This document shows positions 13,680 through 43,541 of a stretch of 47,605 bases of DNA, in pieces. Numbering within the stretch: the first letter of the stretch is position 1; the number at the start of each line of letters is the position of its first letter. The position numbers and the translations under genes are program-made. The notes under the pieces are model-generated. The model was given only the letters and a program-made list of their open reading frames with translations. It was not told the DNA's origin and made no database searches. The stretch comes from an uncultured Lachnospiraceae bacterium (GTDB taxonomy: Bacteria; Bacillota; Clostridia; Lachnospirales; Lachnospiraceae). The DNA lies in assembly GCA_947631605.1 (NCBI GenBank), contig CANRMC010000003.1, positions 1 to 47,605 on the forward strand, given 5' to 3'.

Positions 13680-15137
13680 CTATTCATTAAAGCTTCCGAA
13701 ATATTCCTTGATCACATCTTCCATCCCGCTTGGATATTTCCCCTGTTGAATACCCTCGTAGGCGTTTTGTGAGTAACTTCCGATCACGGAATCATAAGAT
13801 ACATGGTTTCCTTCCCATGCAAGTCCGTTCTGTGTATGGTAATACTGGGATTCGTCGGAATCTCCTGCCTGACCGGTGAGATTATCGTCATTTCCGTAAT
13901 TATTCGGAACACTTACATAATCATGCGGCGTATTACCGCCGGAGCCATGACCGGCTCCGTTTCCGGCACCGCCGTCTCCTCCGCCGTTTCCGTTTCCTTC
14001 GCCGCTTCCTTCTCCTTCGCCGTTTCCGTTTCCTTCGCCGTTTCCGTTTCCTTCACCATTTCCGTTTCCTTCGCCGCTTCCGTTTCCATTACCATTTCCG
14101 TCATTGCCGTTTCCATTATTGTTTCCGCCATTTCCGTTCTGACCATTATTGCCGTTTCCGGAATTGCCGTTATTTCCATTTTCATTATTTCCTGCGTTTC
14201 CGTTCTGACCGCCGTTTCCGTTCTCATTTCCGGACGGATTATTTCCGTTCTGACTGCCGCCGGAATTTCCGTTCTGACCGCCCGAAGCGTTCTGGCTTCC
14301 GGACGGGGTATGGCTCATCATCGTTCCCGCCGCCTGCTGCATGGCGTTTCCGGCGCCGCTCTCCCCCGCCGGGTTGTTCTGCGCCGCATTTTCCGCCATC
14401 TGATTCAGATTGCCTGCCATTTCCTCATATTTGTATTCCAGTTTCTCCTGCGCCTGCTGCAGGGCTTCCATGGACTCCGCCTGATCATACTCTGTAATGG
14501 AAGCATTCAGGGAATCGATCATATTCTGGATCTCTGCCTGCTGATCCGGACTGAGTTCGTTCATATCCACTTCCTCAAGTTCCTCGATCACTTCCTGAAT
14601 CTCATCCTGCTTCTCCTTTGCCAGTTCGTGGATCTCGTGCTGTTCTTTCGCAAGAAGCTTGACCGGAGACGGAATGAAGATCATGGCGATCATAAGAACA
14701 AGCCCGCCTGCCAGAATAAAAAGCACCTTCCGATCCGGACAAAGCCTGATCTTTACGTCATCCTGCCGTTTCTTCAAAATCCCCGCCGCGTTTCTTCTCT
14801 GACATTCAAAGACCGCATCCTTCTTTTTACGGTTTTCATATGCGGTAATTATACGCTCCTTAAATCCAAAGGAATCAATGCAAAGCGCCGCAGCCTCCAT
14901 TCCGTACCGTTTCATGATCCCCATAACAAGTCCTGTCAAAAGTCCGGTTAAGACGGCAAGCGCCGCGCATAGATTTACATAATAAAACGGAAAGAAGAAG
15001 GCTATGCCCTCCAGCAAAATGCCGGCTCCGCAGCCAATGATCGTGCCCCTTGCCGCATAGTCCAGTATACGGGAGGTATTCATTCTGGCTCTGCATTTCG
15101 TTATGAAATTTATGATAAATTTCATATGGTCTTCCAT
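13680..15137 (-). CDS. Membrane protein with coiled-coil region and Gly/Asn/Glu low-complexity tract; function unknown, MoxR/VWA locus component
   Basis: Two hydrophobic N-terminal segments, Glu-rich helical stretch, (GNGNGE)n tract, conserved-looking C-terminus VIGSYSQNAYEGIQQGKYPSGMEDVIKEYFGSFNE. Confidence 0.8.
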   Translation of the reverse strand: MEDHMKFIINFITKCRARMNTSRILDYAARGTIIGCGAGILLEGIAFFFPFYYVNLCAALAVLTGLLTGLVMGIMKRYGMEAAALCIDSFGFKERIITAYENRKKKDAVFECQRRNAAGILKKRQDDVKIRLCPDRKVLFILAGGLVLMIAMIFIPSPVKLLAKEQHEIHELAKEKQDEIQEVIEELEEVDMNELSPDQQAEIQNMIDSLNASITEYDQAESMEALQQAQEKLEYKYEEMAGNLNQMAENAAQNNPAGESGAGNAMQQAAGTMMSHTPSGSQNASGGQNGNSGGSQNGNNPSGNENGNGGQNGNAGNNENGNNGNSGNGNNGQNGNGGNNNGNGNDGNGNGNGSGEGNGNGEGNGNGEGNGNGEGEGSGEGNGNGGGDGGAGNGAGHGSGGNTPHDYVSVPNNYGNDDNLTGQAGDSDESQYYHTQNGLAWEGNHVSYDSVIGSYSQNAYEGIQQGKYPSGMEDVIKEYFGSFNE

Positions 15138-22737: not shown

Positions 22738-23943
22738 TTACTCCAGAAAATCTTTCAGTTTGCGCCTCCGGCTTGGATGTCTCAGTTTCCGCAATGCTTT
22801 TGCTTCAATCTGCCGGATTCGCTCTCTTGTAACATTAAATACCTTTCCCACTTCTTCCAGTGTCCGCGCCCGTCCGTCATCCAGACCGAAACGCAGTCGA
22901 AGTACTTTCTGTTCCCTGTCAGTAAGGGTTCCCAATACTTCCACAAGCTGTTCCTTTAACAGCGTAAATGCAGCGGCGTCAGCAGGCACAGGTACGTTTT
23001 CGTCCTGAATGAAATCTCCCAGATGACTGTCCTCTTCTTCGCCGATCGGCGTTTCCAGAGATACCGGTTCCTGTGAGATCTTTAAAATCTCCCGAACACG
23101 CTCTACCGGTATATCCATTTCTTCTGCAATTTCTTCCGGGGTTGGTTCCCTGCCCAGTTCCTGAAGGAGCTGACGGGAAACACGGATCAATTTGTTGATA
23201 GTCTCCACCATATGCACAGGGATACGGATAGTACGCGCCTGATCTGCTATCGCCCTCGTAATCGCCTGACGGATCCACCATGTTGCATAGGTACTGAATT
23301 TATATCCCTTCCGGTAATCAAATTTTTCCACAGCTTTAATAAGTCCCAGATTTCCTTCCTGGATCAGATCCAGAAAGAGCATGCCGCGCCCTACATAGCG
23401 TTTTGCGATCGATACAACCAGACGCAGGTTCGCCTCCGCGAGTTTTTTCTTAGCCTCTTCATCACCGTTTTCCATCCGCTTTGCGAGTTCAATTTCTTCC
23501 TCGGCAGAAAGAAGCGGAACCTTACCGATTTCCTTCAGATACATCCGGACCGGATCTTCAATGCTGACGCCGTCCGGTACGGACAGATCGATCTGCTCCA
23601 CATCAATTTCTTCTTCCTCATCCAGTTCAAAGGAAAGGGCGTCCGGATCCACATCGTCGTCATCTTCTGTGATAGTCAGGACATCCACGCCTCGCTGCTC
23701 CAGAAATTCCAGGATTCTTGCCATATTATCAGAAGTCAGGAGTTCTTTGCAGTCACTGAACATATCGATGATTTCCGTATCTTCAATGACATTCTTTTTT
23801 TTCTTCGCAAATTCCAGCAGAGCTTCCAGCTTCTGTTTGAATTTCTCCTGAGAAACAGCAGATGTTGCAGTCTCTTCTGTCTGTTCTTCTGAAGTTCCCT
23901 TAATATCTGCTTTTTCTTTCTTTTCTTCCATGATTCTATCCAT
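22738..23943 (-). CDS. rpoD: RNA polymerase primary sigma factor RpoD/SigA
   Basis: [116 protein letters not shown]. Confidence 0.98.
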
Positions 23944-23972: not shown

Positions 23973-25730
23973 TCATAACGAAATATGCAATTTTAACAGT
24001 TCCTGCTTCTTCCGGATCAATTCCGGAAAACGTTTTGGATCCTGATTATCAGAAAGTTCCCGTTCGACACTCTCAAGTTTGATCTTTCTCACCACATCTG
24101 TTACGGCCCTTACCATTTCCTCATCGGATGTTTCAAACGGAAGCTCCGTCTGAAGCATGCCTGCCGCTATACTCTGCTTGTCTACATCATCAAACCGGTT
24201 AACGATCGCCGCCGGATTTACCTTTCCGGTGGTTCTGTACTGCTCAAACAGAGCCTCCGCCACAACAAAGCAGTCGCCTTCCGTAAAATCCTTCTCGGAT
24301 ATAATCCCGTCCAGTTTCCGGAAAAGCTCCGGGCGGTTGGCAAGCCATGTCAGAAGAAGTCCCTGCTGCGTCAGACTTCCGGTCGGCTTCTTTCTATCCG
24401 GTTCCGGCGGAGGAGGAACGGTTTCATAGTCCCCCGACAGCCCATACTGGGTAACGGTTGCTTTTAAAATACCCGCATCCAGCATATATTGCCGGCTGAC
24501 TGTCTCGATATAACTGTTTCTCGCTACGGCGTCGGTAAGCATTGCAAGTTTTCTTGCCACATTATGCAGAAATTCTGTCTTTCCCTCCGGATCGTTCAGA
24601 TTATATGCTTTCCGCATCTGCTCGATCTCAAACATCAGACCGGGGACTGCATCCCGTATACGTTCCTCGAACGCTTCTTTTCCGGCTCCCTGTATCAGTT
24701 CGTCCGGATCTTTATATGGTTTCAGATTTATGACGCGTTGGGAAAGTCCTATGCTCCGGAGGATCCCGATCGCTTTCAGCGCAGCGTTTACGCCCGCCTC
24801 GTCGCTGTCATATGCCAGATATACTTCCTTGGTATAGCGCTTGATAAGATTTGCCTGTCCGATCGTAAATGCGGTGCCGAGAGAGGCTGTGGCATTGTCA
24901 AATCCGGCCTGATGCATAGCAATGACATCCATATAGCCTTCACATAGGATCATGCCCCGTCTCCTGCTGCGCCTCGCCAGATGCAGGGCAAACAGCATAT
25001 GGCTCTTATCAAAAATCTCTGTTTCCTTTGTATTTAGATATTTCGGTTTTGCGTCTCCTAAAACACGCCCGCCAAATGCAACGACTTTTCCGTTGATATC
25101 CAGGATCGGCACCATAACGCGGTTCCAGAACCGGTCATGCGGTCCGCGTTTTTCATCAAATTCAATCAATCCGGCGTCACGCATGAGGTCGTCCGGATAA
25201 TTCTTCTGTTTTAGATACTGATATAGTCCGTTCGGTCCAAAATCCGCATATCCCAGTCCAAAGCGCTGGATCGTCTCATACGAAAGACCTCTTTTTCGGA
25301 AATATTCCAATCCTTTTTTGCCCCGCTCCGTCTTGGTAAGCAGATAATGATAGTATGCCGCCGCACTTTTATTCACCTCACGAAGCTGTACCTTCCGGCT
25401 TTCCTTCTGTTTCTCTTCGCCGGAAAGCTTTTGCTCCGGAAGTTCCATTCCTGCCCGATCCGCTAAATATTTCACTGCTTCCGGAAATGAGTAGTGTTCA
25501 TATTCCATTAGAAATGTGAATACGTTTCCTCCGGCTCCGCAGCCGAAGCAATGATACATCTGCTTTTCCCTGCTTACATGGAAAGACGGCGTCTTCTCAT
25601 TGTGAAACGGACAACAGGCGGTGTATGTATTTCCTTTTCGTTTCAATCCCACATAACCGTTAATGACATCGACGATATCATTCCGGGATCTTACTTCTTC
25701 TACGATCTCATCCGGGTAATACAAGTTCAT
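23973..25730 (-). CDS. dnaG: DNA primase
   Basis: Zinc finger CPFHNEKTPSFHVSREKQMYHCFGCGAGGNVFTFLM; Toprim ILCEGYMDVIAMHQAGFDNATASLGTAFT. Confidence 0.98.
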   Translation of the reverse strand: MNLYYPDEIVEEVRSRNDIVDVINGYVGLKRKGNTYTACCPFHNEKTPSFHVSREKQMYHCFGCGAGGNVFTFLMEYEHYSFPEAVKYLADRAGMELPEQKLSGEEKQKESRKVQLREVNKSAAAYYHYLLTKTERGKKGLEYFRKRGLSYETIQRFGLGYADFGPNGLYQYLKQKNYPDDLMRDAGLIEFDEKRGPHDRFWNRVMVPILDINGKVVAFGGRVLGDAKPKYLNTKETEIFDKSHMLFALHLARRSRRRGMILCEGYMDVIAMHQAGFDNATASLGTAFTIGQANLIKRYTKEVYLAYDSDEAGVNAALKAIGILRSIGLSQRVINLKPYKDPDELIQGAGKEAFEERIRDAVPGLMFEIEQMRKAYNLNDPEGKTEFLHNVARKLAMLTDAVARNSYIETVSRQYMLDAGILKATVTQYGLSGDYETVPPPPEPDRKKPTGSLTQQGLLLTWLANRPELFRKLDGIISEKDFTEGDCFVVAEALFEQYRTTGKVNPAAIVNRFDDVDKQSIAAGMLQTELPFETSDEEMVRAVTDVVRKIKLESVERELSDNQDPKRFPELIRKKQELLKLHISL

Positions 25731-25750
25731 CCCTCTTTCTACTATCTATC

Positions 25751-25842
25751 CGCAATGCAAAAAGTTGCAAAATGCTGCGATACAGAGCGGCTGTGCTGCA
25801 AAATGCTGCAACATGTTGCAAAATGTTGCAAAGTGTTGCAAA
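25751..25842 (-). repeat. Short direct-repeat array, consensus TTTTGCAACA (minus strand), 10-bp period, upstream of dnaG
   Basis: Five contiguous 10-mers at 25791-25842 (minus: TTTTGCAACA CTTTGCAACA TTTTGCAACA TGTTGCAGCA TTTTGCAGCA) and about three degenerate units at 25751-25780. Confidence 0.85.
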
Positions 25843-25856
25843 ATACCGCCATACTG

Positions 25857-26864
25857 TCAGATTCCGCCCCATGCGGTCGGAATATATATATTCTGAAAAC
25901 AGCTTACCGCATAGTTATCACTCATGCCTGCGATGTAATCACATACGATGACTCGTTTTTCTTCGCCCTCATCAATCATACGCTGGTATTCCTCCGGCAT
26001 TTCCTCCGGTCTTGCCAGATAATAAGCATACAGTAATTCGATCATTTTAGCTGCTTTCTTTTCCTCGCCCTTTGCTTTGGGATTCGTATAAAGATAGGAA
26101 AACATAAACGTCCTCAGATTAAAGAGCGCTTCTTCATATTCTTTGGAGAGACAGATATGAGACTTGCCTTCCGAATTCCGTATGACATCATGAATAACGG
26201 AATCAATCCTATCCCTGGTGGAATGTCCCAATACATAGGTACATAAGGCAGGCAGGTCTTCTTCAGTCAGTATTCCCGCACGTATGCCGTCATCAATATC
26301 ATGGTTTACATAAGCAATTTTGTCAGAAATTCGGACTACTTCTCCCTCCAGAGTTGCAGGATTTCCGGAAATTTTGTGATTGCGTATTCCGTCTCTTACC
26401 TCCCAGGTAAGATTCAGGCCTGCTCCTTCTTTTTCCAGACGCTCTACCACACGCACGCTCTGTTCGTTGTGCTTAAACGGAGCGCCCATCGCAGTGGATA
26501 ACGCGCGTTCACCGGCATGTCCAAAAGGCGTGTGCCCCAGATCGTGTCCAAGGGCGATCGCCTCTGTCAGATCCTCGTTCAGCCGGAGAGCTTTGGAAAT
26601 CGTTCTTGCGATCTGGGATACCTCTAATGTATGCGTAAGTCTCGTCCTGTAATGGTCTCCGCCCGGCGAAAGAAATACCTGTGTTTTATGCTTAAGGCGG
26701 CGAAATGCCTTAGAATGGAGTATCCGGTCCCTGTCTCTCTGATAATCCGTCCGGATATCGCAGGACTCTTCTTTCCTTTCCCGTCCTTTTGATCCATCAC
26801 TAAACGATGCATAAGGACTTAATATCTGATGTTCCATTTTCTCAAATTCTTCGCGTATCAGCAT
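25857..26864 (-). CDS. dgt: Deoxyguanosinetriphosphate triphosphohydrolase (dGTPase, HD domain)
   Basis: DYQRDRDRILHSKAFRRLKHKTQVFLSPGGDHYRTRLTHTLEVSQIARTI...ALGHDLGHTPFGHAGE. Confidence 0.95.
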   Translation of the reverse strand: MLIREEFEKMEHQILSPYASFSDGSKGRERKEESCDIRTDYQRDRDRILHSKAFRRLKHKTQVFLSPGGDHYRTRLTHTLEVSQIARTISKALRLNEDLTEAIALGHDLGHTPFGHAGERALSTAMGAPFKHNEQSVRVVERLEKEGAGLNLTWEVRDGIRNHKISGNPATLEGEVVRISDKIAYVNHDIDDGIRAGILTEEDLPALCTYVLGHSTRDRIDSVIHDVIRNSEGKSHICLSKEYEEALFNLRTFMFSYLYTNPKAKGEEKKAAKMIELLYAYYLARPEEMPEEYQRMIDEGEEKRVIVCDYIAGMSDNYAVSCFQNIYIPTAWGGI

Positions 26865-26940
26865 GCTTCCACCTCGTCAGACAATAAAAGAGCACCTAAT
26901 TTATTATTCTACAAAATTCCCGATAAACCTTTTTTTATTT

Positions 26941-26980
26941 TAAAAAGCCATGGACAATTTTCTTATCCATGGCTTTTAAA
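26941..26980 (-). terminator. Intrinsic terminator hairpin downstream of the PrsA/SurA-like gene
   Basis: AAAAGCCATGGA-CAATTTTCTTA-TCCATGGCTTTT with T-rich flank on the minus strand. Confidence 0.8.
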
Positions 26981-41199: not shown

Positions 41200-41241
41200 A
41201 GCTGCGTTATGGCTGTATTTAGCTGCGTTATGATTGTATTT
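41200..41241. repeat. 21-bp tandem direct repeat, two copies
   Basis: AGCTGCGTTATGGCTGTATTT followed immediately by AGCTGCGTTATGATTGTATTT (2 mismatches). Confidence 0.9.
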
Positions 41242-43386: not shown

Positions 43387-43471
43387 ATTTTAACCTCCCA
43401 GTCATTATATGAAAACTTCATCTTGCATAAGATAAATTATACCAAAATCCATGTTTGTAGTAAAGAACAAA

Positions 43472-43541
43472 TTCTATGTCGGACGTTGCGTTAATCTATG
43501 CGGGACGTTGCGTTAATTCTATGGAGGTCGTTGCTTAAATC
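43472..43541. repeat. Three imperfect 22-23-bp direct repeats, consensus TTCTATGnnGGACGTTGCGTTAA
   Basis: TTCTATGTCGGACGTTGCGTTAA / ATCTATGCGGGACGTTGCGTTAA / TTCTATGGAGGTCGTTGCTTAAA; third copy abuts the VWA gene stop codon. Confidence 0.85.

Follow-up and report, generated by a model that had tools for sequence, protein, structure and literature searches.

We analysed a window of 47,605 nucleotides, which is one entire contig of the 2.34-Mb draft genome of an uncultured Lachnospiraceae bacterium. Three genes follow one another on its minus strand: an open reading frame for a dGTPase-like protein that is homologous to the dgt of relatives (25857-26864), the primase gene dnaG (23973-25730), and rpoD/sigA, which was recognized from its open reading frame and sequence (22738-23943). 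The genomes that share matching dgt and dnaG genes are Lachnospiraceae. The dnaG gene probably starts at a TTG at 25724 rather than at the ATG at 25730, because AAAGAGGG adjoins this ATG (25722-25730, minus strand) and because aligned relatives begin at the TTG position (TTG/ATG-TAT-TAY, with Y-Y-P codons). If so, the distances from the upstream array described below to the start of dnaG, which the first-pass annotation of this DNA had given as 20-110 bp, shift by 6 bp.

Between dgt and dnaG, a gap of 126 bp holds a 10-bp repeat array on the minus strand, in which an 11-bp spacer separates five contiguous units (25794-25843) from three degenerate ones (25753-25782). The contiguous units, seen both in the sequence and by Tandem Repeats Finder, are TTTTGCAACA (unit 1, 25834-25843), CTTTGCAACA (unit 2, 25824-25833), TTTTGCAACA again (unit 3, 25814-25823), TGTTGCAGCA (unit 4, 25804-25813), and TTTTGCAGCA (unit 5, 25794-25803). 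After the spacer, CAGCCGCTCTG (25783-25793), the sequence reads TATCGCAGCA (unit 6, 25773-25782), the weaker TTTTGCAACT (unit 7, 25763-25772), and TTTTGCATTG (unit 8, 25753-25762). Tandem Repeats Finder reported the segment 25797-25844 with a period of 10, 4.8 copies, 86% matches, and a score of 75. The best tandem score of the gap was 31, compared with a mean of 7.6 and a maximum of 15 in 2000 dinucleotide shuffles of the same 126 bp. The array is real and above chance, and the sequence, the repeat score, and the shuffles bear out the earlier description of a phased array in this gap.

Other details of that description stood in full or in part. The 14-bp palindrome TGCAACATGTTGCA lies at 25807-25820 as annotated and is made by two adjoining near-palindromic units. 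Because the array unit itself comes close to being self-complementary (TGTTGCAACA forms a perfect palindrome), its orientation is ambiguous. The TGCA cores were found at the positions listed for them, except that 25776 reads TGCG. The claim that every unit faces the same side of the DNA holds only approximately, as the period of 10.0 bp, set against a helix of 10.5 bp, gives a drift of ~17 degrees per unit and ~100 degrees over 81 bp. A coding repeat was rejected because a 10-bp period shifts the frame; the antisense open reading frame at 25551-26036 overlaps the array by chance.

The internal structure of the array points to an origin by duplication. Neighboring units resemble each other, with GCAACA in units 1-3 and GCAGCA in units 4-6, and the 13-mer TGCAAAATGCTGC (25766-25778, plus strand) recurs as an identical copy at 25797-25809, offset by 31 bp, a sign of segmental duplication. 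When we searched the 2.34-Mb genome for three-unit patterns with 0 or 1 mismatch, the array was the sole match, so that the search for further arrays proposed in the first-pass annotation yielded none, in other intergenic regions or elsewhere. The unit TTTTGCAACA occurs 20 times in the genome; two copies belong to the array, and the 18 stray copies lie in long open frames, save possibly one at a contig edge. A genome-wide regulon or dispersed operator was rejected on these grounds. Tandem arrays of other kinds are frequent: in 446 kb sampled from this genome, about seven further places held arrays that had a period of 7-20 not a multiple of three and a score of at least 55, or roughly one per 60 kb. 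Tandem duplication is therefore common in this genome, and no other array in the sample combined a period as short with a score as high. Within the window, two other tandem arrays, apparently outside long open frames, were seen at 43470-43538 and 41200-41241 (periods of 22 and 21 bp), and dense 18/36-bp tandem repeats (CCGTTTCCTTCGCCGTTT) at 13972-14180 probably encode a repetitive protein.

The order dgt-dnaG is kept in 104 relatives, where the spacer has a median length of 30 nt. The first-pass annotation had named absence from relatives beforehand as its refuting test, and the array was indeed absent from the gap in all 104, a set from outside the genus in which dnaG identity reaches at most 67%. 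In the closest relative, whose dnaG is 67% identical, the spacer measures 11 nt by alignment. When the spacer was searched as DNA against 396 further genomes of the family, nothing beyond short weak matches came back. With two mismatches allowed, the three-unit pattern was found in 4 of the 396, in none of them at dnaG. In one of the other Lachnospiraceae genomes (L166, ~1495-1580), three degenerate units, TTTTTACAAC, TTTTTGCAACA, and TTTTGCAA, lie directly 5' of a TTGCTA-17-TATAAT promoter and a lipoprotein-like gene, an isolated case. Because the array is absent at the 104 dgt-dnaG loci and the dgt-dnaG spacer has only short weak matches among the family genomes, the array most likely arose once this lineage had separated from its known relatives. 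Its absence at those loci also led us to reject a conserved dnaG operator.

A promoter scan of positions 25500-26200 returned 0 sigma-70-type sites, and a scan of the same interval found no intrinsic terminator. The predicted RNA fold of the gap was not unusually stable (z-score -1.07) and an Rfam search gave only sub-threshold matches to eukaryotic miRNAs, results that led us to reject an RNA element. Upstream of dgt, a hairpin is followed by a T-rich run (~26940-26975), and an A+T-rich stretch is also present; a simple scan before dgt gave no terminator and no promoter on the minus strand. The hairpin and T-rich run, together with the short dgt-dnaG gaps of relatives, suggest that transcription may enter 5' of dgt.

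Taken as a whole, the array is probably a lineage-specific minisatellite made by duplication, without a required regulatory role. A 10-bp unit would have been multiplied locally in the dgt-dnaG spacer, by replication slippage or a similar process, and would then have partly decayed, and the resulting array probably lies inside a single dgt-dnaG-rpoD transcription unit. Slippage fits best of the three readings first offered for this site; neither the operator nor the iteron-like reading is supported by recurrence in the genome, by a promoter, or by conservation. Three features speak against a plain repeat, namely that no other array in the sampled DNA was at once as short in period and as high in score, that the unit matches a motif apparently used by phages as a promoter element, and that the phasing of its T-tracts gives a marked predicted curvature, which could have an effect. 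If the array is only a repeat, it illustrates that phased arrays 5' of key genes can be lineage-specific and otherwise has little import.

The phage motif is the one point in favor of an operator. On this reading, several molecules of a DNA-binding protein would occupy one face of the array cooperatively and control dnaG-rpoD, a role that could fall to a sigma-region-4-like activator of the phage Ltr/RinA/Alt type or to a regulator of the host. We found 13 viral contigs with three exact TTGCAACA decamers, although these were retrieved by querying this very decamer, so that the match alone carries little weight. The units of the phage arrays follow one another at exactly 10 bp and are oriented towards the downstream gene as in the window array; the reversed motif occurred in 0 contigs. 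In 9 of the 13 contigs, representing about six independent groups, the stop codon of a small regulator gene precedes the array by 1-21 bp. Arrays of a control decamer were present in 7 contigs, none of them beside such a gene (0/7), and the same was true of other TTGCAAYW arrays (0/10). Since the control decamer also gave 7, the count of TTGCAACA arrays alone was rejected as proof of phage specificity; these arrays differ from the controls by their neighboring genes.

The phage regulators fall into those that match DUF1492/Sigma70_r4 and phrog_36 (L173, L179, and L183) and those that are DUF6362-like and match phrog_6836 (L175, L177, L178, and others). HNH or terminase genes lie downstream of the arrays, and in four phages of the DUF1492 type a TATAAT stands exactly 28 nt past the last unit. 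Phages and prophages of Lachnospiraceae, Streptococcus, Erysipelothrix, and Ruminococcus often carry other units at the same position (TTGGCACA, ATGTCC, GGTACA, or TTCACC). Judged from these sequences, the array layout is common across phages while the unit varies, which suggests that regulator and repeat site co-vary. At twelve loci (L173, L175, L176, L177, L178, L183, L205, L207, L208, L213, L228, and L230), we observed arrays of decamer direct repeats directly 3' of genes for sigma-70-region-4-like (DUF1492/phrog_36) or DUF6362-like regulators, followed in most cases by a TATAAT-like box and HNH/terminase genes. This arrangement fits what has been published on the late regulators Ltr and Alt, whose binding repeats lie immediately 5' of the late promoter, and deletion of the repeats abolishes late-promoter activity in S. 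aureus phage phi13 (PMC13123087). In phages, near-identical decamer arrays apparently act as elements of late promoters. A literature search for the array motif itself returned chance occurrences only. These decamer arrays directly behind sigma-region-4-like regulators, constant in layout and variable in unit, are the more useful side result of this work, as they offer a simple signature by which late promoters of gut phages can be located and their regulators matched to sites.

Several observations at the host locus nevertheless argue against an operator. The best TATAAT-like match after the array agrees at only 3-4 of 6 positions, late genes are not near, and the array has neither a second copy in the genome nor a counterpart in relatives. 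No DUF1492 gene was matched in this draft genome, from which prophages may be missing, and a search for DUF6362, run without a positive control, gave no match either. Besides ordinary sigma factors, the best phrog_36 match was a prophage regulator on another contig (C11, ~24115-24633), and behind this late-regulator-like gene come 9-bp TTTTGNCCG repeats of its own and a TATTAA-like box rather than TTGCAACA. The C11 repeats are followed by HNH and portal-like genes, the phage layout with another unit. We therefore regard an operator of dnaG-rpoD as possible but rather unlikely.

Less probable still, in our estimate, is an effect of DNA shape, whereby T-tracts phased at 10 bp would bend the DNA and so influence transcription or the binding of nucleoid proteins without a sequence-specific regulator. 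A dinucleotide wedge model, crude and indicative only, predicted a curvature of ~105 degrees over 90 bp, a value reached by 0.07% of windows; the contig averages 32 (sd 17). However, any T-rich decamer repeat gives such curvature automatically, and no recognizable promoter adjoins the array.

We give little credence to a more elaborate proposal, in which the array would be a late operator of phage type, either captured or convergent, through which a phage switches on or hijacks the host genes for primase and the main sigma factor, the sigma-region-4-like activator coming from an infecting phage or from a prophage missing from the assembly. An iteron-like or replication-related site is the most improbable of all, for although regularly spaced direct repeats adjoin a primase gene, no replication initiator gene lies nearby, no DnaA-box cluster was seen in the gap, and the locus is the host chromosomal dgt-dnaG-rpoD rather than a replicon origin.

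We lastly compared the array with three kinds of known repeats. Phage late promoters of the Ltr/RinA/Alt type (phi13 P23, TP901-1, and the DUF1492/phrog_36 and DUF6362-like groups) likewise place a number of direct repeats ahead of a gene, and one subgroup shares with the window array the identical decamer TTTGCAACA, the 10-bp spacing, and the orientation; the operator unit is recognizable here as the TTGCAACA decamer of the phage contigs. The published phi13 repeats measure 18 bp, compared with 10 bp in the window. The surroundings also differ: late promoters have their regulator gene directly 5' of the repeats, where the window array has dgt; they carry a TATAAT-like -10 box ~28-33 nt downstream, whereas the partial match in the window lies elsewhere; they precede HNH, terminase, or late genes rather than dnaG and rpoD; and they have a cognate regulator, whereas the draft genome of the array gave no DUF1492 match. 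Sites of OmpR-family regulators resemble the array in that their repeats are spaced by about one helical turn. The direct repeats of WalR, PhoB, and PhoP recur every 11 bp and differ in sequence, whereas the window array has a period of exactly 10 bp and up to five contiguous units. The closest agreement is with VNTR-like bacterial minisatellites, with which the array shares lineage-specific, partly degenerate units arranged head to tail, a location in a non-coding spacer, and a period that is not a multiple of three; the array is not conserved between species at this site (0/104 relatives), and its head-to-tail copies exceed chance (repeat score of 75; tandem score of 31, at most 15 in the shuffles).
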